The position numbers and the translations under genes were made by a program. From Hahella sp. KA22 (GTDB taxonomy: Bacteria; Pseudomonadota; Gammaproteobacteria; Pseudomonadales; Oleiphilaceae): 64,000 nt of DNA. Shown piece after piece: positions 8,997 to 51,087 of this stretch (within the stretch, counting starts at the first letter, position 1; the number at the start of each line of letters is the position of its first letter). The notes beneath the pieces were generated by a model. The model worked only from the letters and a program-made list of their open reading frames with translations, made no database searches and was not told the DNA's origin. The stretch is taken from NCBI RefSeq assembly GCF_004135205.1, contig NZ_CP035490.1, forward strand, positions 1,240,001 to 1,304,000, given 5' to 3'.

Positions 8997-9229
8997 TATG
9001 GATTTTCCTTCTTGTTGTTAGATGGGGCTATCAGCGTTTCGACCGAGTCGACAGCCCTTCATGTCCACAGCTCTTACTTCTGACATATCTATGCATACGA
9101 CGCCCGAAAAATCCCTAATGTGAAGCAGTCTCTTGTTTCCTTAACCGGGGCGGGAATTCAACCGCTAAGTTTAACCTGAGTAAAAGGGGAATGCGATGCG
9201 CCTTGGGTGAAATCACGTTGCAATCTGAA

Positions 9230-9280
9230 TGTCACAACGCGTCATTGTGTAACATCCCTGTCACATTCGAATCCTATAGT
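9230..9280 (+). promoter_or_regulatory. PhoB-dependent pstS promoter (Pho boxes and -10)
   Basis: Half-sites TGTAACA (9248-9254) and TGTCACA (9259-9265) have their GTAA and GTCA cores 11 bp apart, the PhoB spacing. A further TGTCACA (9230-9236) and GTCATTG (9241-9247) lie just upstream. A -10 hexamer TATAGT (9275-9280) follows the last half-site by ~10 bp, with the box in place of a -35, as at PhoB-activated promoters. Phosphate-starvation induction of pstS is inferred. Confidence 0.8.
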
Positions 9281-9338
9281 GGCGATCAATCCGACGAACC
9301 TATCGGATACGTCGTTACAAAACCAGGAGTTCATCCCT

Positions 9339-10310
9339 ATGCAATTAAAAAAATTTTTTGCGGCAGCCACAGTTGTAGCTGCTTCATTCTGGGCAGGCGC
9401 AGCTTCCGCGGATCTGGATCCAAAGCTGACTGATTACAGCAAAGCAAGTGGTGTTTCCGGCAATCTATCCAGCGTAGGTTCCGATACTCTGGCCAACTTG
9501 ATGACACTGTGGGCTGAAGAGTTCAAGCGTAACTATCCGAACGTCAATATTCAGATTCAGGCCGCTGGTTCATCAACCGCGCCGCCTGCTTTGACTGAAG
9601 GCACTTCCAACTTGGGCCCAATGAGCCGCAAGATGAAAGATAAAGAGCTGGAAGCCTTTGAGAAGAAATTCGGTTACAAGCCTACCGCTATCCCTGTTGC
9701 GATCGACGCCTTGGCGGTGTTCGTACACAAAGACAACCCCATTAAAGGCATGACCATGGCGCAAATCGACGCTGTGTTCTCCTCTACTCGCAAGTGCGGT
9801 TACAGCAAAGACATCACTACCTGGGGCGATCTGGGACTGACCGGCTCCATGGCGAACCGTTCTATCCAGTTGTTCGGTCGTAACTCTGTATCCGGCACTT
9901 ACGGCTACTTCAAAGAGCACGCGCTGTGTAAAGGCGACTACAAAAACAACGTGAACGAGCAGCCTGGCTCCGCTTCTGTTGTACAAGGCGTTTCCGAGTC
10001 TGTTAACGGCATCGGCTACTCTGGCATCGGCTACAAAACCGCCAGCGTACGTTTGGTTCCTCTGGCCAAGAAAGAAGGCGACAAGTTCGTAGAAGCTTCA
10101 CCTGCAACGGCGATCACTGGCGAATACCCACTATCCCGCTTCCTGTACGTATACGTTAACAAGGCTCCAAACAAAGACCTGGACCCTATCGTTGGCGAAT
10201 TCGTTAAGATGATCATGTCCAAGCAAGGTCAGGAAGTGGTCGTGAAAGACGGCTATGTGCCGCTGCCTGCTTCCGTCACCAGCAAGTACCTGAAAGAGCT
10301 GTCACTGTAA
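9339..10310 (+). CDS. pstS: Phosphate ABC transporter periplasmic binding protein PstS
   Basis: This is the periplasmic orthophosphate receptor of the high-affinity PstSCAB transporter. An open frame begins at 9207, but the true start is the ATG at 9339, with AGGAG at 9325-9329 and a clean signal peptide ([24 protein letters not shown]). The upstream frame would run through the Pho promoter. The product is 323 aa. Phosphate-contact regions are visible: [38 protein letters not shown], and the [12 protein letters not shown] loop near mature residue 170. It belongs to the Pseudomonas-type PstS branch rather than the E. coli one. A strong terminator follows, so it can be expressed apart from pstCAB-phoU, which has its own Pho box 2.1 kb downstream. 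Confidence 0.95.
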
Positions 10311-10340
10311 GACTTTCTTACAGACAAAGCCAAAAGGTCG

Positions 10341-10370
10341 AAAAAAACCGCCTCCCACAGGCGGTTTTTT
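10341..10370 (+). terminator. Intrinsic terminator after pstS
   Basis: An A-run precedes CCGCC (10348-10352), a 7-nt loop, GGCGG (10360-10364) and TTTTTT. The flanking A and T bases extend the stem. It allows excess pstS mRNA over the rest of the locus. Confidence 0.9.
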
Positions 10371-10507
10371 CTTTTGTGAAGCGCACTTACCTGCTTGGGT
10401 TCTACGCATAATCCCCGCCATCCCGCAATACACATTTCACATCCGCGCTGCTATCTTATGCGGTTATCGGGGTAACTCTCTCGCCAAAGAAAACATAAGG
10501 AAAAGCC

Positions 10508-12199
10508 ATGCGCGTACTTAAGTTTGTTGGCTATGTATTCGTTCTGTTGATCGTAATAGTCATAGCCGCTCTCTTTTTTATAGACATCATCGCCAAGTTC
10601 GCGATTGAAGAAGAAGGAACCAAAGCGGTTAAGGCCAAGGTTGAAGTCGATTCGGTGGATGTCCGATTCTTTCCCCTTGGCGCCTCAATTCATGGTTTGA
10701 AGGTGACCAATCCTCAAGCGCCGATGACCAATGCGTTTGAGGCGGAGCTGATCGACGCTAATCTGGACTGGGAACCTCTCCTGAAGTCCAAAGTGATTGT
10801 TGAGACCGCAGCGCTGGAAGGCATGCGCTTTAATACTGCGCGCTCGGTCACTGGCGCTGTGCCAGGATTGACGCCGCCGCCCAGTCAGGAACCATCGTTG
10901 GTTGATCAGTTCAAAGAAGATATGAAGCTGCCGGCCATTGATATTCCAGACCCAAATGAACTGCTGGCCAGAGTGGACCTAAAGACCGTATCCATGGCCA
11001 AAGAGATGGAGGCGTCTCTAGCTGCGCGCAAGAAAGCCTGGAAAGAGCGCATCGATGGCCTGCCAAACAAAGAAACCCTGGAAAGCTATAAGCAGCGCAT
11101 CAAAGCGTTGAAAGAGGCGAAAAATCCTTTGGAAAGACTGCAGGCGGTCGCAAAAGTGAAGGATTTGCAGAGCGACGCTAAGAAAGACCTGCAGAAAATT
11201 CGCGACGCCAAGTCTGATCTGGAAAAAGAAGTCGCTCAGTTGAAAGCGGATCTGGCGAAAGTAAAAGCCGCGCCGCAAGAAGATATGAAGCGTGTAATGG
11301 AGCTGGCTGGTTTGAATCCGGGCGCCTGGGAAGGTCTGGCGAAAGCTTTGTTTGGCGATGAAGTGGCGAAATGGGCGAATAACGCCTACATGTGGTACGG
11401 CCGTTTGCAGCCCTACATCAATGGCTCTGGCGAAGAAGCGCAGAAGTCCGCTCCCGAACCTGACACAACGGACTACAGCGATGGCTTGCCACGGTTCCTG
11501 GTGAAGACGCTGAGCATCAGCGGTAAGTTGCCGATCCCGCAGCAGGATGTGCCGTTCTCCGGTAAGTTCAACAACTTGACCGATCGCGCCGACGTATGGG
11601 GCAAACCTGCGCAACTGGCGTTGCAAAGTCAGGCGCAGGGCGTCGGAAAAATGGACTTCAAAGGCGTTCTTGATCATGTCACCGCGATCGCCAAAGACTC
11701 CTTCTCTTTCGACCTGAAAGATCTGCCTGTCACCGATCTTGTTTTCTCTGATAAAGAAGATTTCCCTGTGACCTTGAGCAAAGCGATCGCCGCTATTGCG
11801 GGCAAGGCCGATATCACGGACGGCAAACTGGCGATGAATGTCGACGCCAAGTTCCTGGAAGTGCAACTGGCCAATCTGTTGGAGGGTGAGAGCGCTCCGT
11901 TGAAGAAAGCGTTGCTGAACGCCTTGAAGAATATCTCTCAGTTCGATGTGAACATGCTGGCCTCCGGCGCATTGCAGGATCCACAAGTGAAGATCACTTC
12001 CAGCCTGGATAAAATCCTTTCGCAAAGCGTGAAAGGGCTGATCGATGAAGAGAAGAAAAAGCTTTCCGGCAAAGTGCAGGCGAAGCTGAATGAAATCGTC
12101 AGCGAAAAAGTTGGCGGGTTGGACAGCGAGCTGAATGGGTTGGTGGATATCAACGCGTTGTTACAAGAACGCATCGGCGACTTTTCCAACTTGCTGTAA
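10508..12199 (+). CDS. TIGR03545-like membrane-anchored protein with coiled coil
   Basis: The function is unknown. The 563-aa product begins with a single membrane segment (residues ~5-27, RVLKFVGYVFVLLIVIVIAALFFID). An AsmA-like strand region follows (KAKVEVDSVDVRFFPLGASIHGLKVTNP, residues ~40-70), which would place the bulk in the periplasm. Residues ~160-270 are rich in Lys, Glu, Asp and Leu with heptad character, so a long coiled coil is likely. The C-terminal ~230 residues alternate polar and non-polar residues, as in beta-rich AsmA/lipid-transfer-like proteins, ending in a short helical repeat. I recognise the pattern as the TIGR03545 family from memory only. It lies between pstS and pstC on the same strand, after the pstS terminator and before the pstC Pho box, so it is probably transcribed on its own. 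The ATG is preceded by AAGGAAAAGCC. Confidence 0.75.
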   Translation: MRVLKFVGYVFVLLIVIVIAALFFIDIIAKFAIEEEGTKAVKAKVEVDSVDVRFFPLGASIHGLKVTNPQAPMTNAFEAELIDANLDWEPLLKSKVIVETAALEGMRFNTARSVTGAVPGLTPPPSQEPSLVDQFKEDMKLPAIDIPDPNELLARVDLKTVSMAKEMEASLAARKKAWKERIDGLPNKETLESYKQRIKALKEAKNPLERLQAVAKVKDLQSDAKKDLQKIRDAKSDLEKEVAQLKADLAKVKAAPQEDMKRVMELAGLNPGAWEGLAKALFGDEVAKWANNAYMWYGRLQPYINGSGEEAQKSAPEPDTTDYSDGLPRFLVKTLSISGKLPIPQQDVPFSGKFNNLTDRADVWGKPAQLALQSQAQGVGKMDFKGVLDHVTAIAKDSFSFDLKDLPVTDLVFSDKEDFPVTLSKAIAAIAGKADITDGKLAMNVDAKFLEVQLANLLEGESAPLKKALLNALKNISQFDVNMLASGALQDPQVKITSSLDKILSQSVKGLIDEEKKKLSGKVQAKLNEIVSEKVGGLDSELNGLVDINALLQERIGDFSNLL

Positions 12200-12399
12200 C
12201 GGCAATCAGCTGTCATCACCAGTAATACGCGGGGGCGAAATGGCTTCGTCCCCGCTAACGCTTCCTCTCTTTATTCCCTTAAATTGCGCGTTACGCGTAC
12301 GCCACGCGGAAGTTCGGCGCCGGCTGGGCTCGCGTTCTGACAGGCTGTCACAGAAGCTTAAAATCCCTTTGCTTTAATGAAGGCTTCGCCAGCGACAAA

Positions 12400-12440
12400 T
12401 GTGACAGGGTTGTAACATAACTGTCACATTGTGCCGTTAT
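12400..12440 (+). promoter_or_regulatory. PhoB box upstream of pstC
   Basis: TTGTAACATAACTGTCACA (12410-12428) has GTAA and GTCA cores exactly 11 bp apart, the PhoB arrangement. TGTGACAG (12400-12407) and CTGTCACA (12421-12428) also form an inverted pair around it. A possible -10, CGTTAT (12435-12440), follows. A further CTGTCAC half-site lies at about 12345. The pstC start is 34 bases downstream. Confidence 0.85.
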
Positions 12441-12473
12441 CGTTTGCGCATCTTTTAATATTGGGATTTCACT

Positions 12474-14750
12474 ATGAATGAGGCGGTATCTGTCAAAGCC
12501 CCGGAGATAGACTTCAATACCCCCCAGCTCAAGCGCCACCGCAATATCAGAACCCTGAAAGACAAAATGGCGAAAGGGTTTATCGCCGCTGGCGGTGTGA
12601 GCGTCATTGTTGCAGTCACCCTGATCTTCTTTTACTTGCTTTATGAAGTGGCGCCGATTTTTGAATCCGCGTCCGTAGACGCTGTCGCCAGTTATGACGC
12701 GCCCGGCGAGAAGGGCGAAACTTTGTTGTTGGGCATGGAAGAGCAGGCTGAGAAGGGGCTGCGTCTGGATGATAATGGCAATGTCACCTTCTTCAATTTA
12801 AAAGACGGCACTGTCGATTCCGCGACCCGCCTGCCTATTCCTGATGGGGCGTCTTTGACTGGCGTCAACGAAGGCGCGCCGGGCTCCAACACGGTGGTGG
12901 CCGGTGTGAGTGACGGCAGCGTCGTTATCTTCAAGCACACCTATAACATCACCTGGCCCAATAATGTTCGGGTAATTACGCCATCGCTGGAATTTCCATA
13001 TGGCGAGTCGCCGATGGCGTTGGACCCGTCCGGGGCGGCGCTGACCCATGTGGCGGTGCGTGACAATAATGATTATCTTCTGGTCGTTGGGTCCAACACC
13101 TCGAACAAGCTGTTCGCCAGCTTTTACGAGAAGGAAGCGAACTTTCTGACTGGTGATGTAACGCTGGAAGAATCCTCCGTCACCATGCCCTCAGTGAATG
13201 GCGATATCGTTTCCATTCAAATCAGTCCAGACACTCGCTGGCTGTATGTCGCCACCAAGAGCGGCAAGCTGGATATGTACGACATATCCAACAAGCAGTC
13301 GCCGGACTTGATCGCTCGCGTCGACGCTGTCGCGTCAGGCTCCCAGATCACTGACATGAGCTTTCTGCTGGGCGGCTATTCCTTGTTGATCGCTAACAAC
13401 CGTGGCGAAATCCGTCAGTGGTTCCCCGTTCGCGATGCTGAAAACCAGTATCATCTGCAGCATGTGCGCAGCTTCCAGGCAGGCAAGGCGGCTATCGCCA
13501 AGATTGCGGTGGAGCCGAGACGCAAAGGCTTTCTGGTCGCTACAGCTCAGGGCGAAGCGGCGATTTTTAACACCACTGCCGAACGCAATCTATTGCAAGA
13601 GCCAGTCGTCGAGGGCGACGTGAAGCACATGACGGTTGCGCCCAGAGCCAACTTCATGCTGCTGCAATCGCAGGATGATCGTCTGCATTTCTGGAGTATC
13701 GATAACGAGCACCCGGACGTATCCTGGTCCGCGCTCTGGAGTGAAGTCTGGTATGAGGGCTACTCGGAGCCTGACTATGTTTGGCAGTCCTCCGCCGCCA
13801 GTAATGACTTTGAACCCAAGTACAGCCTGACGCCTTTAGTGTTCGGCACGATCAAAGCGGCGTTCTACGCTATGTTGATCGCAATTCCTCTGGCGATCTG
13901 CGGCGCCTTGTATACCGCTCATTTCATGTCGCCGACCCTGCGTCGGAAAGTGAAGCCGGCGATTGAGCTGATGGAAGCGTTGCCAACGGTTATCCTGGGC
14001 TTCCTGGCGGGGTTGTTTTTCGCTCCGTTCATGGAGTCTCACATGCCGGGCGTGTTTACGCTGCTGGTGTTGACCCCGATCGCGATACTTGTGTTCAGTT
14101 TCGCTTGGGCCAATATGCCGCAATCCGTACGCCTGATGGTGCCGGAAGGCTGGGAGCCATTGTTGCTGCTACCGGTAATCTGTTTCATCGGCTGGCTTAG
14201 CTTCGCTATCAGCCCCGCGGTAGAGATCGCCTTATTCGACGGCAATATGCCCCACTGGCTGAAAGAAACAGTTGGTTTGGATTATGACCAGCGCAACGCG
14301 CTTGTGGTAGGCGCGGCGATGGGCTTTGCGGTGATCCCAACCATTTTCTCCATCACTGAAGACGCGGTGTTCAGCGTGCCGAAGCATCTGACCTACGGAT
14401 CTCTGGCGCTGGGCGCTACGCCTTGGCAAACCATGATTCGCGTAGTGTTGCCGACCGCCAGCCCCGGTATTTTCTCCGCGCTGATGATCGGTCTGGGTCG
14501 CGCTGTCGGTGAAACCATGATCGTACTGATGGCGACAGGCAACACGCCGATTATGGATATGAATATCTTTGAGGGCATGCGTACGCTGGCCGCTAACATT
14601 GCGGTGGAAATGCCGGAGTCCGAAGTTGGCAGCTCCCACTTCCGGATCTTGTTCCTGGCGGCGTTCGTGTTGTTCCTGTTCACCTTCCTGGTGAACACCG
14701 TGGCTGAATTCGTGCGCCAGCGTCTGCGGGCCAAGTACAGCGTGATTTAA
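12474..14750 (+). CDS. pstC: Phosphate ABC transporter permease PstC, long form with large periplasmic domain
   Basis: This is an inner-membrane channel subunit of the Pst phosphate importer. The product is 758 aa, far longer than E. coli PstC (~319 aa). After one membrane segment (residues ~36-58), an insert of ~390 residues (about 60-450) precedes the normal permease core. The insert has repeated short strands ending in aromatic-Asp-x motifs, such as DTRWLYVATKSGKLDMYDIS, LLIANNRGEIRQWF, GFLVATAQGEAAIFN and DRLHFWSIDN. These resemble WD40/beta-propeller blades and are predicted to be periplasmic. The core from ~455 has the usual helices and the EAA loop (YGSLALGATPWQTMIRVVLPTASPGI). Long PstC proteins occur in pseudomonads and related bacteria; I know of no described role for the insert. 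It is the first gene of pstCAB-phoU, under a Pho box. Confidence 0.93.
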   Translation: MNEAVSVKAPEIDFNTPQLKRHRNIRTLKDKMAKGFIAAGGVSVIVAVTLIFFYLLYEVAPIFESASVDAVASYDAPGEKGETLLLGMEEQAEKGLRLDDNGNVTFFNLKDGTVDSATRLPIPDGASLTGVNEGAPGSNTVVAGVSDGSVVIFKHTYNITWPNNVRVITPSLEFPYGESPMALDPSGAALTHVAVRDNNDYLLVVGSNTSNKLFASFYEKEANFLTGDVTLEESSVTMPSVNGDIVSIQISPDTRWLYVATKSGKLDMYDISNKQSPDLIARVDAVASGSQITDMSFLLGGYSLLIANNRGEIRQWFPVRDAENQYHLQHVRSFQAGKAAIAKIAVEPRRKGFLVATAQGEAAIFNTTAERNLLQEPVVEGDVKHMTVAPRANFMLLQSQDDRLHFWSIDNEHPDVSWSALWSEVWYEGYSEPDYVWQSSAASNDFEPKYSLTPLVFGTIKAAFYAMLIAIPLAICGALYTAHFMSPTLRRKVKPAIELMEALPTVILGFLAGLFFAPFMESHMPGVFTLLVLTPIAILVFSFAWANMPQSVRLMVPEGWEPLLLLPVICFIGWLSFAISPAVEIALFDGNMPHWLKETVGLDYDQRNALVVGAAMGFAVIPTIFSITEDAVFSVPKHLTYGSLALGATPWQTMIRVVLPTASPGIFSALMIGLGRAVGETMIVLMATGNTPIMDMNIFEGMRTLAANIAVEMPESEVGSSHFRILFLAAFVLFLFTFLVNTVAEFVRQRLRAKYSVI

Positions 14751-14816
14751 GGTCACGCTGAGTCATGCGGAAGTCCGATGGGCAGTAAAGAAATCTGAGA
14801 GAATCGAGAGAACAGA

Positions 14817-16481
14817 ATGCGCGTTTCACTGAAAACCTGGTTTAACAAAGGCGATCCCTGGATCTGGATTAACGCCGGCGCTGTATCAATCAGTCTGGTG
14901 ATGGTGTTCGGTCTGCTGTTGCTGATTGGCGTGCGAGGCTTGGCCCACTTTTGGCCTCACAGCCTGATGGAAACCGATTATCTGGGCGAGAACGATAAAA
15001 CCACGCTGTTGATTGGTGAGATCGTCGAAACAGAAGAAGTGCCGGCGGAGCAATTGCATGCCGCGGGCGTACAGGTGCCGTCGGGCGTTGACTATATGCG
15101 CCGCGATTTGATCAAGACCGGCAACCGGGACGTACTTGGTTCAGACTTCCGTTGGGTGCTGGCGGACCGCATGCGTGACGTGCGCTATCCCAAAGAGTTG
15201 ATGACGCTGGAGCGTCGCGAATGGGGCAATTTCTACGGCTATCTGGTGTCAGTCAAAGAAGACGGCTCGGTAGTGGCCTCAGGCTCTGGCGCCTGGGATG
15301 AATTGCAGTCCCGTATAGATCGCGCCTTGTCGCTGCACGACCGTATCTATGACATTGAAAAACAGCAGATTGGTAAGGTGAACTACACCCTGGAGCGTCT
15401 GCGTCTGAAGGAACGCCGTCTTGAGCTGGATGGTCGCAAGACGCCGGAAGCCATGGCGGAGATTGAAGCGGAGCGCGCTGAACAACATGCGACCTATGAA
15501 GTACTGCAGAAGGATCTGAACGAGCTGTATCTGGAAATCAAACGCGACGCTTTGGTGGCGCGTGCGATGAACGGTAAGGAGCTGGAAATTTCTCTGTCCA
15601 AAGTGGTGCGCGCATTTCAGCCGAACCAGATGGGGCTGCTGGATAAAATCGGATTCTATTTCGCCAAGATCTGGGAGTTCATCAGTGATGACCCACGTGA
15701 GGCGAACACCGAAGGCGGTATTTTCCCCGCTATCTACGGTACGGTGCTGATGGTGGTCATTATGTCCGTGTTGGTGACGCCCTTGGGTGTGATCGCAGCG
15801 GTTTACCTAAGAGAGTATGCGCACCAGGGCGCTTTGACGCGAATCATCCGCATCGCGGTGAATAATTTGGCGGGCGTGCCCTCTATCGTATACGGCGTAT
15901 TTGGCCTGGGCTTCTTCATTTACTTTATTGGCAGCGGCATTGACGAACACTTCTTTCCAGAAGCGCTGCCGTCGCCGACCTTTGGCGCTCCCGGGTTGCT
16001 GTGGGCCTCCATTACCCTGGCTATTTTGACCCTGCCTGTGGTGATTGTCGCTACGGAAGAAGGTCTGGCGCGTATTCCCCGTTCTATTCGTGAGGGCAGC
16101 CTTGCGCTGGGCGCGACCAAGGCCGAGACGTTGTGGCGGGTTGTGCTGCCGATGGCCAGTCCGGCGATGATGACTGGCGTGATCCTGGCGATTGCGCGCG
16201 CCGCCGGGGAAGTGGCTCCTTTGATGCTGGTAGGGGTGGTCAAGCTGGCCCCGTCGTTGCCCCTGGATGGCAATTATCCTTACCTGCATTTGGACCAAAA
16301 ATTTATGCACCTGGGCTTCCATATCTATGACGTTGGCTTCCAAAGCCCGAACGTAGAGGCGGCGCGCCCACTGGTTTATGCGACGGCCCTGTTGCTGGTG
16401 GCGGTGATCGCATTACTTAACCTGAGTGCGGTGGCGATTCGTAACCGCCTGCGTGAAAAGTACAAAGCCCTTGAGATGTAA
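14817..16481 (+). CDS. pstA: Phosphate ABC transporter permease PstA, long form (DUF3333-type N-terminus)
   Basis: This is the second membrane subunit of the Pst phosphate importer. The 554-aa product is about twice the length of E. coli PstA (~296 aa). It has an N-terminal membrane helix (residues ~16-40), then a ~260-residue periplasmic region (about 42-300) that ends the DUF3333-type extension. This extension contains a charged helical stretch (~160-250, EKQQIGKVNYTLERLRLKER...) likely to form a coiled coil. The permease core starts near residue 300, with GGIFPAIYGTVLMVVIMSV and the EAA loop REGSLALGATKAETLWRVVLP. The gene is 66 bases after pstC and 42 bases before the pstB start. Both permeases being enlarged on the periplasmic face suggests the two inserts meet each other or PstS; this is inference. 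Confidence 0.93.
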   Translation: MRVSLKTWFNKGDPWIWINAGAVSISLVMVFGLLLLIGVRGLAHFWPHSLMETDYLGENDKTTLLIGEIVETEEVPAEQLHAAGVQVPSGVDYMRRDLIKTGNRDVLGSDFRWVLADRMRDVRYPKELMTLERREWGNFYGYLVSVKEDGSVVASGSGAWDELQSRIDRALSLHDRIYDIEKQQIGKVNYTLERLRLKERRLELDGRKTPEAMAEIEAERAEQHATYEVLQKDLNELYLEIKRDALVARAMNGKELEISLSKVVRAFQPNQMGLLDKIGFYFAKIWEFISDDPREANTEGGIFPAIYGTVLMVVIMSVLVTPLGVIAAVYLREYAHQGALTRIIRIAVNNLAGVPSIVYGVFGLGFFIYFIGSGIDEHFFPEALPSPTFGAPGLLWASITLAILTLPVVIVATEEGLARIPRSIREGSLALGATKAETLWRVVLPMASPAMMTGVILAIARAAGEVAPLMLVGVVKLAPSLPLDGNYPYLHLDQKFMHLGFHIYDVGFQSPNVEAARPLVYATALLLVAVIALLNLSAVAIRNRLREKYKALEM

Positions 16482-16523
16482 CCTGAGCCGGATGACGCCC
16501 CGAAGCCGGTGGGGAGGACTATA

Positions 16524-17408
16524 ATGAGTGAAACTATGACCAATCAGAACGTAGTGAACGAAGAGCAGCCATTCAACGAATCCAAGCACCGTTCTCACGG
16601 TATCGACATTAGCGCGATCGAGCGCTCGATGGAGGATTTGTCGATCGACAATGAGACGGTCGCCCTTGAGGTAAACAAGCTCAAGCTGTTCTACGGCGAG
16701 AAAGAAGCGTTGCATGGCATTGATATGCGCATTCCGCAAAAGCGGGTGACGGCGTTTATCGGTCCGTCAGGTTGTGGTAAGTCCACCCTGCTGCGCTGCT
16801 TTAACCGCATGAATGATCTGGTTGATGGGTGTCGCATTGACGGGCAGATTCTGCTGGAAAAAGAAGATATCTACCGTAAGGGGGTGGACGTAGCGGAGTT
16901 GCGCCGTCGCGTAGGCATGGTGTTCCAGAAGCCGAACCCATTCCCCAAGACTATCTATGAAAATGTGGCGTACGGGCTCAGAATCCAGGGCATCAACAAG
17001 AAGCGCATTCTGGATGAAACGGTGGAGTGGGCGCTCAAGTCCGCGGCGTTGTGGGATGAAGTGAAAGACCGTCTGAACGACAGCGCTTTGGGCCTGTCCG
17101 GCGGTCAGCAGCAGCGTCTGGTTATCGCCCGCACCGTGGCGGTGAAACCGGAAGTGCTCCTGCTTGACGAACCCGCGTCAGCCTTGGACCCGTTATCAAC
17201 GTTGAAGATCGAAGAGCTGATCCATGAGCTGAAGGACGACTACACCATCGTCATCGTCACCCACAATATGCAGCAGGCGGCGCGAGTATCGGACTATACT
17301 GCGTTCATGTACATGGGCGACCTGATTGAGTTCGGCAGCACCAACCAGCTGTTCACCAATCCGTCCTGCAAGCAGACAGAAGATTATATTACCGGGCGTT
17401 ACGGGTAA
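16524..17408 (+). CDS. pstB: Phosphate ABC transporter ATPase PstB
   Basis: This is the cytoplasmic ATP-hydrolysing subunit that drives Pst phosphate uptake. I start at the ATG at 16524, which has GGGGAGGACT directly upstream; an in-frame GTG at 16509 lies before that ribosome-binding site. The product is 294 aa, ~35 residues longer at the N-terminus than E. coli PstB. Motifs are Walker [11 protein letters not shown]-loop [15 protein letters not shown] signature LSGGQQQRL, Walker [13 protein letters not shown] and the H-loop [33 protein letters not shown] is diagnostic for PstB over other ABC ATPases. It is the third gene of pstCAB-phoU; phoU starts 38 bases after its stop. Confidence 0.97.
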
Positions 17409-17446
17409 CAGTTTTCCCCGGCGGAAATTAGTAATAGGAAGCATTT

Positions 17447-18166
17447 ATGGCGAACTCAGACGTTCATTTGCAGCATATTTCTCAACAGTTCAATGTGGAT
17501 TTGCGGGAGCTCCGGAACCATGTTCTGGTGATGGGCGGCCTGGTGGAAAAGCAGGTGGCGGACGCGGTTGAGGCGTTGGTGCGGGGGGATTCCGAACTGG
17601 CGGAAATGGTGCGCCAGAATGACAATGACGTCGACAAACTGGAAATCACCATCGATGAAGAATGTACCCGGGTTATCGCCAAGCGTCAGCCGACGGCGAG
17701 CGACCTGCGTCTGGTGGTGGCGATTGCGAAAATGGTCAACGACCTGGAGCGTATTGGCGACGAGTCGGAGAAGATCGCCAAGAACGCGCTGCAACTGCTG
17801 GAAGAGGGCGAAGCGCCGCGTGGCTATGTGGAAGTGCGCCATATCGGCAGTCATGTCGGGAAAATGGTGCATGACGCACTGGACGCCTTCGCTCGCTTCG
17901 ATCTGGATCTGGCCTTTGAAGTCATGAAAGAAGACAAGTCTGTGGACATCGAGTATAAAACCGCGATGCGCTCACTGGTGACGTTCATGATGGAAGATCC
18001 GCGCAGTATCTCCCGTATCCTCAGCGTCATGTGGGTATTGCGTGCGCTGGAGCGCATCGGCGACCATGCCAGAAATATCTGTGAGCACGTAATTTTCATG
18101 GTGAAGGGCAAGGATGTGCGCCATGCTTCTCTGGAGAAGACCGAGAAGCTAATCGAAAGATCCTGA
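17447..18166 (+). CDS. phoU: Phosphate signalling protein PhoU
   Basis: This cytoplasmic helical-bundle protein links the state of the Pst transporter to the PhoR kinase and represses the Pho regulon when phosphate is plentiful. The product is 239 aa (E. coli PhoU 241 aa). Two three-helix repeats are visible, each with the E/D-x-x-x-D metal-binding type motif: DNDVDKLEITIDEEC (residues ~45-60) and the second near EDKSVDIEYKTAM (~160-172). Conserved NDLERIGDESEKIAKNA and LERIGDHARNICEHVIFMVKGKDVRH confirm the family. It is the last gene of the pst operon and is followed by a strong terminator. PhoB and PhoR, its output partners, are encoded 15 kb away in this window. Confidence 0.97.
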   Translation: MANSDVHLQHISQQFNVDLRELRNHVLVMGGLVEKQVADAVEALVRGDSELAEMVRQNDNDVDKLEITIDEECTRVIAKRQPTASDLRLVVAIAKMVNDLERIGDESEKIAKNALQLLEEGEAPRGYVEVRHIGSHVGKMVHDALDAFARFDLDLAFEVMKEDKSVDIEYKTAMRSLVTFMMEDPRSISRILSVMWVLRALERIGDHARNICEHVIFMVKGKDVRHASLEKTEKLIERS

Positions 18167-28324: not shown

Positions 28325-29053
28325 ATGTCGGACTTATTGCTGCCTTTGCTGCAACGCACTTTGCCTCGCGGCGCTCTTCGAGTGGGCGCGCCGCCGCTTA
28401 TTCCTGAAATCCATCTTTATTTATTCGACCCTGTGGTAATGGAAGGACCGCTCTCCCATGAGGAGGCGCAGGCTGTCGTCGCTGAACCGGCTTACTGGAG
28501 TTTTTGCTGGGCCAGTGGGCAGGTGTTGGCGCGATATATTCTCGATCACCCTGAGCTGGTGGCGGGCAAAACGGTGTGGGACATCGGAGCGGGTTCCGGC
28601 GTGGTGGCGATTGCCGCAGCGCTGGCGGGAGCCTCGGCCGTCCTGGCCTGTGACCTGGATTCGGCTGCGCAAGTGGCGGCGGCGGAGAATGCTGCGTTGA
28701 ATGGGGTGCAAGTGAGGGTGTGTGAGACGCTGCCGTCTGCCAACAAGCCTGATGTGATCACGGCGGCGGATATTCTCTACGACCGAGACAACCTGCAATG
28801 GTTGCCGGAATGGCGGGATAGAGCGTCTAAAGTGCTGTTAGCGGATTCGCGGGTGCGTAATCTGGTTGCGCCTGGATATGAGCTGAAAAAGGCCGCATCT
28901 GGCAGAACGTTTCCTGATCTCAATGAGTTAGAAGAGTTTAATGAAGTGAGAATCTACGAGAGCGGACGCCATATCCCAGGCGAAAAAAAGGCGACTAATC
29001 AGGTCGCCTCATTTGGAATAGGTTTTGGATTCCCATCCGCCGTTCCTTGGTAA
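28325..29053 (+). CDS. SAM-dependent methyltransferase, ETFB lysine methyltransferase-like
   Basis: This is a class I methyltransferase similar to the group containing PrmA and the ETFB lysine (METTL20) and predicted nicotinamide N-methyltransferases; the substrate is unknown. The product is 242 aa. Motif I (GKTVWDIGAGSGVVAIAAALAGA, residues ~79-101) and the post-I acidic loop (VLACDLDSAAQVAAAENAALNG) bind S-adenosylmethionine. VITAADILYDRDNLQWLP (~140-157) corresponds to the 'D.iy' motif of this group. The family normally ends near 'VRIYE'; here ~29 further residues (ESGRHIPGEKKATNQ...) are encoded by DNA that is antisense to the terminator and 3' part of the regulatory RNA on the other strand. 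The tail may be a product of that overlap. Confidence 0.8.
   Translation: MSDLLLPLLQRTLPRGALRVGAPPLIPEIHLYLFDPVVMEGPLSHEEAQAVVAEPAYWSFCWASGQVLARYILDHPELVAGKTVWDIGAGSGVVAIAAALAGASAVLACDLDSAAQVAAAENAALNGVQVRVCETLPSANKPDVITAADILYDRDNLQWLPEWRDRASKVLLADSRVRNLVAPGYELKKAASGRTFPDLNELEEFNEVRIYESGRHIPGEKKATNQVASFGIGFGFPSAVPW
28983..29009 (-). terminator. Intrinsic terminator of the CsrB-type RNA
   Basis: On the minus strand: AGGCGAC (29009-29003), 7-nt loop, GTCGCCT (28995-28989), then a T-run to 28983. It lies inside the 3' end of the convergent methyltransferase gene. Confidence 0.92.
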
Positions 29054-29201
29054 AGCGCCATCCTATGCGCCAGCTTTATCCTGTTTTATTCCTGGATTAA
29101 CTCCAAAAATTCCCTCAAGCATCATTCCTTATCCTTGCTTCCCTTCGCTTCCTGCGAAGAAACCATCCTGGCTGGATTCCATTTCCTTGTCTGCCTTGAC
29201 G
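28983..29201 (-). ncRNA. csrB: CsrB/RsmZ-type regulatory RNA
   Basis: This is a predicted small RNA that binds several copies of the translational regulator CsrA (RsmA) and so relieves its repression. On the minus strand between about 29186 and 29031 I count 15 GGA triplets in ~155 nt, nine of them as AGGA, the CsrA recognition core. The one at 29168-29166 sits in a CCA-GGA-TGG hairpin. The RNA ends in an intrinsic terminator, GGCGAC / GTCGCC with a 7-nt loop and seven Ts (28983-28989). A -10 hexamer TATATT (29213-29208) places the start near 29201, giving ~219 nt. The GacA/UvrY box centred at 29380 is ~180 bp upstream, its usual position at rsm genes. No protein-coding reading of this stretch is convincing. 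The family call is strong; the exact ends are predicted. Confidence 0.88.
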
Positions 29202-29207
29202 GTTGTA

Positions 29208-29213
29208 AATATA
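29208..29213 (-). promoter_or_regulatory. Predicted -10 element of the CsrB-type RNA
   Basis: TATATT read on the minus strand from 29213 to 29208. No good -35 hexamer is seen at 16-18 bp, as expected if an activator is needed. Confidence 0.55.
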
Positions 29214-29371
29214 CCTCGGGCCGAATGGCCTTTTTGTGACAATCTTCAAGAGCGGGTACGCCGCTTAACTCAGTCTGTTTTAGAAAGGTTATATAAAACA
29301 ACGTGTTACGAAATGTCTCAGCAAGTAAATCCGTAATGATTACAGTAACTTCCGCTAATTTCCTACGGCTT

Positions 29372-29389
29372 TGTGAGATATCTCGCACA
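29372..29389 (-). promoter_or_regulatory. GacA/UvrY upstream activating sequence
   Basis: TGTGCGAGATATCTCACA on the minus strand (plus strand TGTGAGATATCTCGCACA) is an 18-bp near-perfect palindrome, very close to the TGTaaGaNNNNtCttACA box bound by GacA/UvrY-type response regulators. Its centre is ~180 bp upstream of the predicted RNA start. Confidence 0.8.
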
Positions 29390-29472: not shown

Positions 29473-29871
29473 TCAGTAGGATGCTTTGGGCGGACGCGCG
29501 GACACTACCAGCCAGTTCGCCAGGGACACGCCAATCGCAATGCCGATAGTATTGGCCACAATATCTCCAAGACTGCCGTCCCGATAGGGAATAAAGCTTT
29601 GCAGGCCTTCAATGAGCAGGCCATAGCAAGTCATGGCGATAAAAACATGAAGGACCCGGCTATTGCGGTGACTCCACATGGCCATGCCACTCATTACGGC
29701 GAAAGAAAACGCATGCCGTATTTTATCGTTCACAGTCCCCAGTGGCGTGTACTCGTTGGGAGTGAGCGCAATGACCAGGCCCACCACCATCAGTACGTAG
29801 AAGGCGACACGGGCGGACCAATGCCCTCCAAGAACGATCAAGCTTTTATATAATTGAGACAAACTAAACAT
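29473..29871 (-). CDS. VanZ-like family membrane protein
   Basis: This is a small inner-membrane protein of the VanZ-like superfamily; its role outside glycopeptide-resistance loci is unknown. I start at the ATG at 29871 (AGGAAG 8 bases upstream) rather than at 29895, giving 132 aa. Four hydrophobic segments are visible: ~20-40, 55-75, 80-98 and 103-125. The VanZ-like signature appears as DKIRHAFSFAVMSGMAMW in helix 2 and GLLIEGLQSFIPYRDGSLGDIVANTIGIAIGV in the last third. The latter shape (E-x-x-Q-x-F-x-P-x-R-x-x-x-x-x-D-x-x-x-N) is the most conserved. The start region overlaps the leader of the divergent DUF2971-like gene. Confidence 0.85.
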   Translation of the reverse strand: MFSLSQLYKSLIVLGGHWSARVAFYVLMVVGLVIALTPNEYTPLGTVNDKIRHAFSFAVMSGMAMWSHRNSRVLHVFIAMTCYGLLIEGLQSFIPYRDGSLGDIVANTIGIAIGVSLANWLVVSARPPKASY

Positions 29872-29898
29872 GGGAAAGCGCTTCCTGGGCATCAAAAC

Positions 29899-32541: not shown

Positions 32542-33870
32542 TTAATCACTGACATTCTCGGCTTCCGCTAACGCCTCCGCAGAAGCCATGCGAGTGCGCG
32601 GGAAGTGGCAGGTGAAGGTGCTGCCTTCGCCGATGTGGCTGGTGATTTCCAGCTCGCCGTCATGATTGATCAGGACATGCTTGACGATTGCCAGTCCCAA
32701 CCCTGTGCCGCCGGTATCTGCAGCCCGTGAAGGGTCAGCTCGGTAAAAACGTTCCGTCAGTCTGGGAATGTGCAGGGGATCAATGCCGATGCCACTGTCC
32801 CTGACGGCGAAATGCACGCCTTTCTTATCCTCGAACCAGCGCACCCGAATCTCGCCATTGGGAGGCGTGTATTTCACTGCATTCATAACGATATTGGAAA
32901 AAGCGCTGTGTAATTGCGTTTCGTTGCCGGTAAGCCCGGCGCTGCTCTCCAGACTCAGCTCTATGCGGTGGCCTTTTTCCTGGCTCAGGGCGCGGGCGTC
33001 GTCGCAGATAGCGCGCAGCATGCTATCCACATCCACCAACGTAGCTTTGAAGTTGGAGCCGTCATTCTCTATGCGGGAAAGCAGCAGTAAGTCATTGACC
33101 AGTGCTTCCATACGCTGCGCTTGTTGCTGCATCTGGTTCAAGGCGCGATTCCAGCGAGGAGGCAGTTCATCGGCGTTGTCGATGAGGGTCTCCAGATAGC
33201 CGGATATGACCGTCAATGGCGTGCGCAACTCATGGGATACGTTAGAAACGAAGTCCCGTCGCATCTCTTCCAGACGGTATAGCCGCGTCACATCCTGCAC
33301 CAGTAGCAGGCGATCGTCTTCTCCGAACAGTGTGATATGAAACTGTAACTTCAAGTTGGGATTATTGGGGGCGTTGAGGATCAACGGCTCCTGGTATTTC
33401 TTGGAGGTGAAGTAGCGCTTGAAAATAGGCGTGCGGATCAGGTTGTAAATCAGCTGGCCCCGGTCGGTCGGATATTTGAAGCCCAGCAGCTTCTCCGCGG
33501 ATTGGTTCCACCAGTCCATAGCGCCTTCGCTGTTGGTCATGACGACAGCGTCTTTAAGGGCGTTGGTGGATTCCTGGATGCGGTCGATCATGGCTTGCAG
33601 TCGATCGCGGGAACGATAGTGCTGAACCTGGAGACGATGAATGCCGTCGAATAGATCTCCCCATAATCCGCGGCTCTCGGGAGGGTCTTCCATTTTCGCC
33701 TGGTACAGCCAGCGGTGCATGCGAAACGCCTGGGTGAGCGTCCACCCCAGGTAGGCGGTGAGACCGAACACCAGCGCCCAGGCTACTGAACCGATAATAA
33801 GGCCGACAATGATGCAGCCCAGCAAACTGTAAACCAGTAGCCGTACATAATGACGCCAGTGATTGCGCAT
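32542..33870 (-). CDS. phoR: Phosphate regulon sensor histidine kinase PhoR
   Basis: This membrane kinase phosphorylates PhoB under phosphate limitation and acts with PhoU and the Pst complex. The product is 442 aa. An N-terminal membrane hairpin (~8-50) is followed by a PAS domain (~100-200, RIQESTNALKDAVVMTNSEGAMDWWN). The HisKA domain carries the H-box FVSNVSHELRTPLTVISG with His213, and the catalytic domain has NAVKYTPP (N), DSGIGIDPLHIPRLTERFYR (G1/F) and GTGLGLAIVKHV (G2). The lack of a periplasmic sensor loop fits PhoR, which senses Pi through Pst/PhoU. It lies 56 bases after phoB on the same strand, so phoB-phoR form an operon. Confidence 0.95.
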   Translation of the reverse strand: MRNHWRHYVRLLVYSLLGCIIVGLIIGSVAWALVFGLTAYLGWTLTQAFRMHRWLYQAKMEDPPESRGLWGDLFDGIHRLQVQHYRSRDRLQAMIDRIQESTNALKDAVVMTNSEGAMDWWNQSAEKLLGFKYPTDRGQLIYNLIRTPIFKRYFTSKKYQEPLILNAPNNPNLKLQFHITLFGEDDRLLLVQDVTRLYRLEEMRRDFVSNVSHELRTPLTVISGYLETLIDNADELPPRWNRALNQMQQQAQRMEALVNDLLLLSRIENDGSNFKATLVDVDSMLRAICDDARALSQEKGHRIELSLESSAGLTGNETQLHSAFSNIVMNAVKYTPPNGEIRVRWFEDKKGVHFAVRDSGIGIDPLHIPRLTERFYRADPSRAADTGGTGLGLAIVKHVLINHDGELEITSHIGEGSTFTCHFPRTRMASAEALAEAENVSD

Positions 33871-33926
33871 GCGTTTTATGAATACTTCTTTTGGAATTAT
33901 TTATTTTTTAAGACGGATCGCGGCGC

Positions 33927-34619
33927 TTATGGCGCTCGGGTCGAAAAGCGATAACCCGTCCCACGCACGGTTTGAACCAGATGATGATGACTGGGCTCCA
34001 GCGCTTTGCGTAAACGTCGAATATGCACATCCACCGTGCGTTCTTCCACGTAGACATTGCCGCCCCATACCTGATCCAAAAGCTGCCCGCGAGTATACAC
34101 CCGTTCCTGATGCGTCATAAAGAACTGCAGGAGCTTGTATTCCGTGGGGCCCATGTTGAGCGCATCGCCTTTGGCGGTGACGCGATGGCACACTGGATCG
34201 AGGCGGAGTCCTTCGACCTCAATGGGGGTTTCCATGCCTTGTACGGCGGTGCGGCGCAGCACTGCTTTCAGGCGCGCGACCAGTTCTCTGGGAGAGAATG
34301 GTTTGGTGATGTAATCGTCTGCGCCCACCTCCAGGCCCTGGACTTTGTTGTCCTCTTCGGTTTTGGCGGTGAGCATGATGAGAGGGATTTCCGAGGTGTT
34401 TTGGTCTCGCTTTAACCGGCGTGCGAATTCAATGCCGCTGACGCCGGGAAGCATCCAGTCCAGCAGTATGAGGTCCGGCTTCTGATCAATGATCAATGCA
34501 TGCGCTTCCCGCGCGTCCCCGGCCTCCAGGTAGTCATAGTCAGCCATTTCCAGAGCGACTGCGATCATTTCCCGGATGGCGGGCTCATCGTCCACTATGA
34601 GAACTTGTTTGCTTGCCAT
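33927..34619 (-). CDS. phoB: Phosphate regulon response regulator PhoB
   Basis: This is an OmpR-family transcription factor; when phosphorylated by PhoR it binds Pho boxes to activate pst and other phosphate genes. I start at the ATG at 34619, with AAGGTG 6 bases upstream, giving 230 aa (E. coli 229 aa). Key receiver residues are the acidic pair Asp10-Asp11, phospho-acceptor Asp54 in [14 protein letters not shown] (Thr in motif) and the Lys of [10 protein letters not shown]. The C-terminal winged-helix DNA-binding domain reads [54 protein letters not shown], with the PhoB recognition helix. A Pho box precedes the gene, so it is probably self-activated. Confidence 0.97.
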
Positions 34620-34654
34620 GCAAAACACCTTTTTGAATACTCGATTGCCGAATT

Positions 34655-34688
34655 ATTACAACGGCGTTTTGTTACAAGTATATGACAG
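34655..34688 (-). promoter_or_regulatory. PhoB box and -10 upstream of phoB
   Basis: On the minus strand: CTGTCATATACTTGTAAC (34688-34671) has GTCA and GTAA cores exactly 11 bp apart. After a 10-base gap the -10 hexamer TGTAAT (34660-34655) follows. This implies PhoB autoregulation. Confidence 0.85.
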
Positions 34689-50583: not shown

Positions 50584-51087
50584 GTTCTAGGTTCTCCACG
50601 TTAATACTATCGATTAAAACGTGCGAGAACTGACGTGGGGCTTGCCTGTGAGTTGCCAGGATGGCCACATCTCAGAACCCGGAAAACAGTTTTTTGGTTA
50701 AGTCATTCCCGCACGTGGGAGTTTTTTTCTAATGTCTATTGCCTAAAGAGGCGCAAACGATCGGGGCTTATTTACCGGTTGGTAACATGCCCTTGGTAAT
50801 TCGTTTGGTAATCGACATTAATGACTTAAACAAAATGTTTCCTGTAAAGGTTCTGGCACCACCTTGCCCAGGTCGGCAGGTTGGTGAGGACGTCAGTCCT
50901 TCTCTTGATGCACGAACACGCTTAATGTATACAAAATAATCGGTTGAATCAATAACCTGGCGAGACGCAGATCAATCTTCGAGGAAATTCCCCGTTAATA
51001 GCCGTTATTTCCGCGATTTTGGACTATGTCCATCAGATGACTGTTTTGTTAAAGTTGCGCCTTCAAATTTACTGAGGGGAAAATCTG
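50584..51087 (+). other. Structured leader/intergenic region upstream of pit
   Basis: These ~500 bases hold no convincing gene. ACGTGCG (50619-50625) pairs over a distance with CGCACGT (50710-50716). A terminator-like ATTCCC-GGGAGT hairpin with seven Ts ends near 50728. A CCA-GGA-TGG hairpin (50656-50664) sits inside. A strong 12-base stem (50857-50868 with 50875-50886, one mismatch) lies further on. Together these suggest a regulatory RNA or attenuator ahead of pit. Confidence 0.5.

Follow-up and report, generated by a model that had tools for sequence, protein, structure and literature searches.

The promoter of E. coli csrB carries a palindrome with its centre at -183/-182, according to the available text of PMC4682653. 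The same text describes crosslinking of UvrY to csrB between -56 and +25 in vivo and protection of the upstream site only in vitro, and its authors favour indirect crosslinking via RNA polymerase. An RNase E cleavage segment of the CsrB RNA is described in the accessible part of PMC5027483. GGA-rich Csr RNAs were found by motif counts in Alteromonas (i.e. Aln1a-c) and Pseudoalteromonas (i.e. Pf1-3), as given in the available parts of PMC5864184 and PMC11882849.

A predicted GGA-rich RNA gene in Hahella

The window (i.e. the whole 64-kb stretch of DNA analysed, from a 6.96-Mb single-contig Hahella genome) very probably encodes, as judged from its sequence, a CsrA-sequestering small RNA, which is a known kind of switch. 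The features of the locus are as follows.

28983 to 29200, minus strand: predicted CsrB-type sRNA of 218 nt with 15 GGA (from GGA count, promoter, terminator and relatives)
28983 to 29008, minus strand: intrinsic terminator (stem 29008-28990, T run 28989-28983)
29015 to 29022, minus strand: conserved segment CCTATTCC, after the last GGA and ahead of the terminator
29208 to 29213, minus strand: -10 element TATATT, with the extended -10 G at -2 present (GGTATATT), as in the promoters of relatives
29225 to 29242, minus strand: direct repeat TTGTCAC-AAAA-AGGCCAT with an 11-bp period, replacing the -35; the second half is degenerate here
29359 to 29367, minus strand: partial second copy CGTAGGAAA just downstream of the palindrome, resembling TGTAGGAGA at E. 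coli csrB
29372 to 29389, minus strand: putative GacA/UvrY palindrome TGTGCGAGATATCTCACA, 18 bp, centre at -180 (from sequence and spacing)
28325 to 29053, plus strand: convergent methyltransferase ORF, a conserved neighbour (Pfam PrmA and Methyltransf_16 matches)
29473 to 29895, minus strand: VanZ-like ORF, the other neighbour, upstream of the RNA (ORF and conservation in relatives)

The original prediction listed 15 GGA triplets (nine as AGGA), a terminator, a TATATT -10 and a palindrome, and each was found on the minus strand where it had been placed. All 15 GGA lie within 29186-29031; A precedes nine of them, with eight AGGA falling fully within this interval and the ninth beginning at 29187. 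Approximately six GGA would be expected in the 218-nt RNA from base composition, and no other 156-nt stretch on either strand of the window reached 11 GGA, the plus-strand maximum being 9. The predicted 5' end is the G of a GTC triplet (29200), placed there on the strength of a GTC that relatives conserve downstream of the -10; the length of about 219 nt proposed originally was near-exact, as the end that fits the relatives gives 218 nt. The region had also been described as looking like an empty intergenic region, which is not wholly so: the RNA and the methyltransferase ORF overlap at their 3' ends by 71 nt (29053-28983), which takes in the terminator. This ORF ends within the terminator stem in each of the three closest relatives that were checked, and the longer tail here is probably due to a T run that is one base shorter (7 vs 8). 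A CC[TC][AG]TTC motif preceded the terminator in 39 of 56 loci for which a terminator was found; by analogy, CCTATTCC may hold a position comparable to that of the segment at which RNase E cleaves E. coli CsrB.

Comparison with E. coli csrB indicated the same geometry, with the palindrome centre (placed by the original prediction about 180 bp upstream) lying 180 nt before the predicted 5' end as compared to a computed -182 in E. coli. Just downstream of the palindrome, TGTAGGAGA in E. coli is matched at the equivalent position by the TGTAGGA-like CGTAGGAAA. Both loci share the promoter form, the 5' GTC...GACA, the GAC...GGGA context, an abundance of GGA (some of them predicted to lie in hairpin loops here) and an intrinsic terminator. 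E. coli CsrB starts with GTCGACAGGGA, and the relatives here start with GTCA...GACAGGGA. Differences were observed in length (369 nt by annotation in E. coli vs 218 nt), GGA number (22 in the available text of PMC11882849 vs 15) and neighbours (yqcC and syd vs the methyltransferase and VanZ-like ORFs). PrrB/RsmZ and RsmX/Y of Pseudomonas are alike in being GGA-rich sRNAs with a GacA box, and the likeness of Aln1a-c and Pf1-3 to the window RNA is GGA richness, by description only.

Conservation, RNA structure and distribution

A BLASTN search with a 407-bp region gave matches in 16 of 58 genomes (own genome included) and 7 of 37 genera. The loose palindrome TGT..G......C..ACA was present near all 18 loci of this search. 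The 16 distinct RNAs ranged from 198 to 651 nt with 12–44 GGA, each having about twice the expected number or more, and the distance from palindrome centre to 5' end was 177–181 nt in 15 of them and 170 nt in the remaining one (i.e. L016). The methyltransferase neighbour was retained in 14 of the 16 matched genomes and the VanZ-like neighbour in 11.

The first 90 nt were aligned across 16 genomes (i.e. alignment A1), and a covariance model (i.e. R1) was trained on 16 sequences. Four helices were named in this domain: a 5' GUC/GAC hairpin, a CCA-GGA-UGG mini-hairpin, a CUUCGC-AGGA-GCGAAG hairpin and AAGC/GCUU.

29111 to 29200, minus strand: conserved 5' domain of 90 nt, modelled as R1 (alignment A1, pair counts, R1 match)
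29143 to 29159, minus strand: hairpin CUUCGC-AGGAA-GCGAAG, predicted to present a GGA (both-sided changes in four of six pairs)
29163 to 29171, minus strand: CCA-GGA-UGG mini-hairpin, weakly supported (cells paired: 88% in A1, 64% in A3)

Both-sided changes were observed in 7 of the 16 pairs of A1, with 96.9% of cells paired as compared to 23–45% for slid control structures. Shuffles scored as high in 0 of 500 cases on four of five measures and in 3 of 500 on the fifth. A wider, model-fitted alignment of 73 matches (i.e. A3) was weaker than A1 yet above control, with 88.1% of cells paired and 80 cells changed on both sides as compared to 24 expected; as many pairs with both-sided changes were seen in 49 of 500 shuffles, and the AAGC/GCUU helix exhibited no both-sided changes in A3. 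The single-sequence fold was modestly more stable than shuffles (z -2.1, 5/200). Presentation of the GGAs in loops was borne out in part when the RNA was folded, since 8 of 15 GGAs were mostly unpaired in the predicted ensemble and 7 were not. The mean unpaired probability was 0.54 at GGAs as compared to 0.45 over the whole RNA, and in each of the 16 folded RNAs the GGAs were less paired than the average position.

Named genomes were scanned by the neighbouring methyltransferase protein only, which gave 135 relatives; the best 80 of these were retained. R1 matched 69 of these best 80 loci, near the methyltransferase gene; training genomes account for at least five of the 69 (i.e. L109, L110, L124, L136 and L145). 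Matches were single per locus, save for L136 (four) and L150 (two, one at E 0.1). The 69 loci belong mostly to Marinobacter, and also to Hahella, Mangrovitalea, Halovibrio, Vreelandella and uncultured relatives, while no R1 match was found in 11 of the 80 loci (i.e. Tamilnaduibacter, L127, and ten others). The script located a terminator in 56 of the 69 loci, for which the median length was 235 nt with 15 GGA. The exact palindrome was present at -176 to -181 in 61 of the 69 loci and a near match at -176 to -182 in 68, the exception (i.e. L144) lying on a contig that extends just 137 nt upstream. Conservation of the GGA array and palindrome reaches well beyond the genus. An R1 search of 390 genomes of the order gave matches in 18, all of one family; misses in this search are not evidence of absence, due to strict filters and the scoring of ten candidates per genome.

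Expanded forms were also noted. One RNA of an uncultured gammaproteobacterium (i.e. L006/L136) is about 628 nt long with 35 GGA and four tandem copies of the 5' domain. The expanded orthologues L012, L011, L008 and L007 have about 445–651 nt and 24–44 GGA, with ends partly set by eye (i.e. for L007, L008 and L012) because the script found no terminator.

Class assignment and protein partners

A CsrB covariance search (RF00018) had been proposed as a check and did not recognize the RNA, which scored 17.1 bits against a gathering cut-off of 71 (E 0.013 in a 601-nt search). No Rfam cut-off was reached by any of 15 relatives scanned, as compared to 380 bits for the E. coli control. As this score is far below the cut-off, the RNA is classed as a Csr/Rsm-type sRNA by anatomy and not as RF00018; the CsrB/RsmZ type originally assigned very probably holds in the former sense and not as family membership. 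A genome-wide Rfam search of the own genome yielded three sub-threshold CsrB matches, among which the window RNA was absent. These matches are uninformative, as the same search gives matches below cut-off in 8 of 14 control genomes. The match at 4246057 (14 bits) had no dense GGA array. The sole Rfam pass in the window was a SAM-I/IV riboswitch above its cut-off (window 50825-50916, minus strand).

The host encodes CsrA, GacA and a BarA/GacS-like kinase. CsrA has one match in the genome, of 67 aa. GacA/UvrY scored above the NCBIfam cut-off (313 vs 280 bits) and its gene adjoins uvrC. The kinase is full-length and scored 863 bits, just below the cut-off of 890, with the next best at 463.

The basis obtained here is sequence anatomy, conservation, compensatory base changes and three protein partners, and on this basis we hold with high confidence that the window RNA is a Csr/Rsm-type antagonist sRNA driven by GacA. 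Transcription, GacA binding, CsrA titration and turnover via the pre-terminator segment we infer from the E. coli and Pseudomonas systems. The BarA/GacS-like kinase would phosphorylate GacA, and GacA-P would bind the palindrome at -180 and activate an extended -10 promoter without a -35 hexamer. The resulting 218-nt RNA would expose numerous GGA motifs, in loops or as single-stranded RNA, and bind several CsrA dimers, such that CsrA-repressed mRNAs would be freed, and its turnover may occur through the segment before the terminator.

Further predicted GGA-rich RNAs and palindromes in the genome

Seven further GGA-rich candidates (8–9 GGA in 142 nt) were detected in three clusters, lying in tandem or as nearby pairs.

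Genome 2276161-2276844 (i.e. L037): three short Rsm-type RNAs, predicted
Genome 3247894-3248404 (i.e. L038): two short Rsm-type RNAs, predicted
Genome 670299-673584 (i.e. L205): two short Rsm-type RNAs, predicted

The best palindrome match was at -65 from the assumed 5' end in six of these RNAs (13 to 18 of 18 letters, wildcards counted) and at -87 in the seventh, and the -35 repeat was absent from all seven. The short RNAs look nearer to PrrB/RsmZ (RF00166) and RsmX/Y than the window RNA does; two of them matched RF00166 end to end, with scores of 27.6 and 26.9 bits that fall short of the family's cut-off (44), and the window RNA does not match it. Matches to the L037 cluster were found in six of seven genomes of the genus (over most of the length in four) and to the L038 cluster in four of seven. 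With the window RNA, a total of eight CsrA antagonists is predicted for one genome.

The loose palindrome pattern was unspecific, with 102 places in the genome as compared to 58 in a reversed control, while a tighter consensus gave nine genome sites as compared to none. The only tighter-consensus sites by GGA arrays were the window site, 2276161 and the pair 3248068/3248385; no GGA array adjoined the 131195 site or four weaker sites. The 131195 site (131195-131212, L039) carries TGTGAGAGATGTCTCACA, which is near-perfect as a GacA-type palindrome.

A direct repeat in place of the -35 element

The promoter repeat is the part of this locus that a specialist would not expect. Promoters were compared for 68 loci (i.e. 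the 69 named loci minus L112, which was left out as it has no recognisable -10), and the G at -2 was present in 67. Where a -35 hexamer would be expected, these promoters share, throughout the family, TCAC...TGT(C/A)A with an 11-bp period. TCAC was located 26–23 nt before the -10 in 58 of 68 promoters, as compared to five or fewer at any other offset not within the repeat, and G[TC][AC]A was located 16–13 nt before the -10 in 47; both halves were present in 45. The repeat lies at -42 to -25 here, whereas E. coli csrB has only a weak counterpart at -46 (i.e. CTGTAAG-CGCC-TTGTAAG; 9 of 14 positions, next place 8). At E. coli csrB, UvrY crosslinks in this same region and leaves no footprint there. 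An A/T block near -95 and, as a candidate factor, IHF were also noticed at the promoters.

A Pho box consists of two CTGTCAY-type heptamers with an 11-bp period, 10 nt before the -10, and the direct repeat resembles such a box. Consensus scoring involved 56 promoters, since many named promoters did not pass a length filter, and 39 after removal of near-duplicates. For these 39, the Pho-type consensus had a mean of 8.46/14 as compared to 4.60 for shuffles. The best tested consensuses in proportion were a GTCA direct repeat (5.72/8) and an everted TCACA/TGTGA (7.05/10). The everted TCACA-N4-TGTGA is disfavoured mainly by one position, since it predicts G at -14, which was seen in 1 of 39 promoters (A in 22, C in 12). 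A CRP site was rejected, its left half being unconserved and its best place merely reusing TCACA, and CpxR, ArcA and PhoP consensuses gave lower scores than the Pho type. The window copy matched 10 of 14 Pho-consensus positions and fits the period. Its spacer to the -10 is 11 nt, as compared to 10 nt (by eye) at Pho boxes of the same genome before phoB, a pst permease gene and a phosphate-binding-like ORF; this spacer and the degenerate second half in the window weaken the Pho reading. The Pho pattern was not enriched genome-wide (110 places vs 101 in a reversed control), and a literature search found no PhoB link to rsm promoters in the text available.

Genes of the Pho system flank the RNA gene in the window, with pstS, pstC, pstA, pstB and phoU at 9207-18166 and phoR and phoB at 32542-34688. 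Pho-box-like sites precede pstC (12410-12427) and phoB (34671-34688).

Alternative explanations

The GGA-rich stretch could be purine-rich by chance, or the convergent methyltransferase gene could give rise to it as antisense or 3'-UTR by-product; the overlap of the RNA's 3' 71 nt with the end of that ORF speaks for such an origin. We regard this as very improbable, as the stretch has its own promoter, a palindrome at a fixed distance and a terminator, all conserved while the flanking ORF end shifts. Compensatory changes occur in the RNA, and in one relative (i.e. L141) about 1.9 kb separate the RNA from the methyltransferase gene. A different account retains a CsrA-binding RNA and assigns its main control to an OmpR-type activator (PhoB or another) at the -35 repeat and a secondary part to GacA. 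The constancy of TCAC (58 of 68 promoters, with both halves in 45), the seven short RNAs with a nearer box and without the repeat, and the presence of phoB, phoR and pst-phoU genes in the same window would fit this account. Against it, the palindrome is better conserved than the repeat, the repeat stands 11 nt from the -10 and not 10 nt (by eye) as at the genome's own Pho boxes, and the second half is poor in the own genome (i.e. AGGCCAT). Likewise, the absence of Pho-pattern enrichment (110 vs 101) and an everted TCACA-N4-TGTGA that scores as high in proportion (7.05/10 vs 8.46/14) argue against PhoB-type control as the principal input, and we consider this account unlikely.

The preferred reading of a GacA-driven CsrA antagonist also permits both elements to act. 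The csrB of Hahella and Marinobacter might be a two-input promoter, with GacA-P at -180 acting in cooperation with an OmpR/PhoB-type activator on the repeat; this proposal is tentative and, on the promoter sequences, somewhat doubtful. The first candidate for the second activator would be PhoB itself.

Implications

A predicted master CsrA antagonist is hereby placed in a widespread marine group (i.e. Hahella, Marinobacter and kin), for which a literature search found no report of a CsrA-antagonist RNA. That search found no report on a CsrA-linked small RNA in Hahella or on CsrB with GacA in Marinobacter. The R1 model recovers the RNA where Rfam fails. As the RNAs span about 200 to 650 nt, and one relative has the 5' domain in four copies, variation in CsrA site number constitutes a natural experiment. 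The -35 repeat provides a handle on what acts at the csrB promoter besides the distant GacA/UvrY site. If the two-input reading is true, the place of UvrY crosslinking at E. coli csrB would be a remnant or counterpart of the repeat, and phosphate or another signal would be coupled to the whole Csr regulon.
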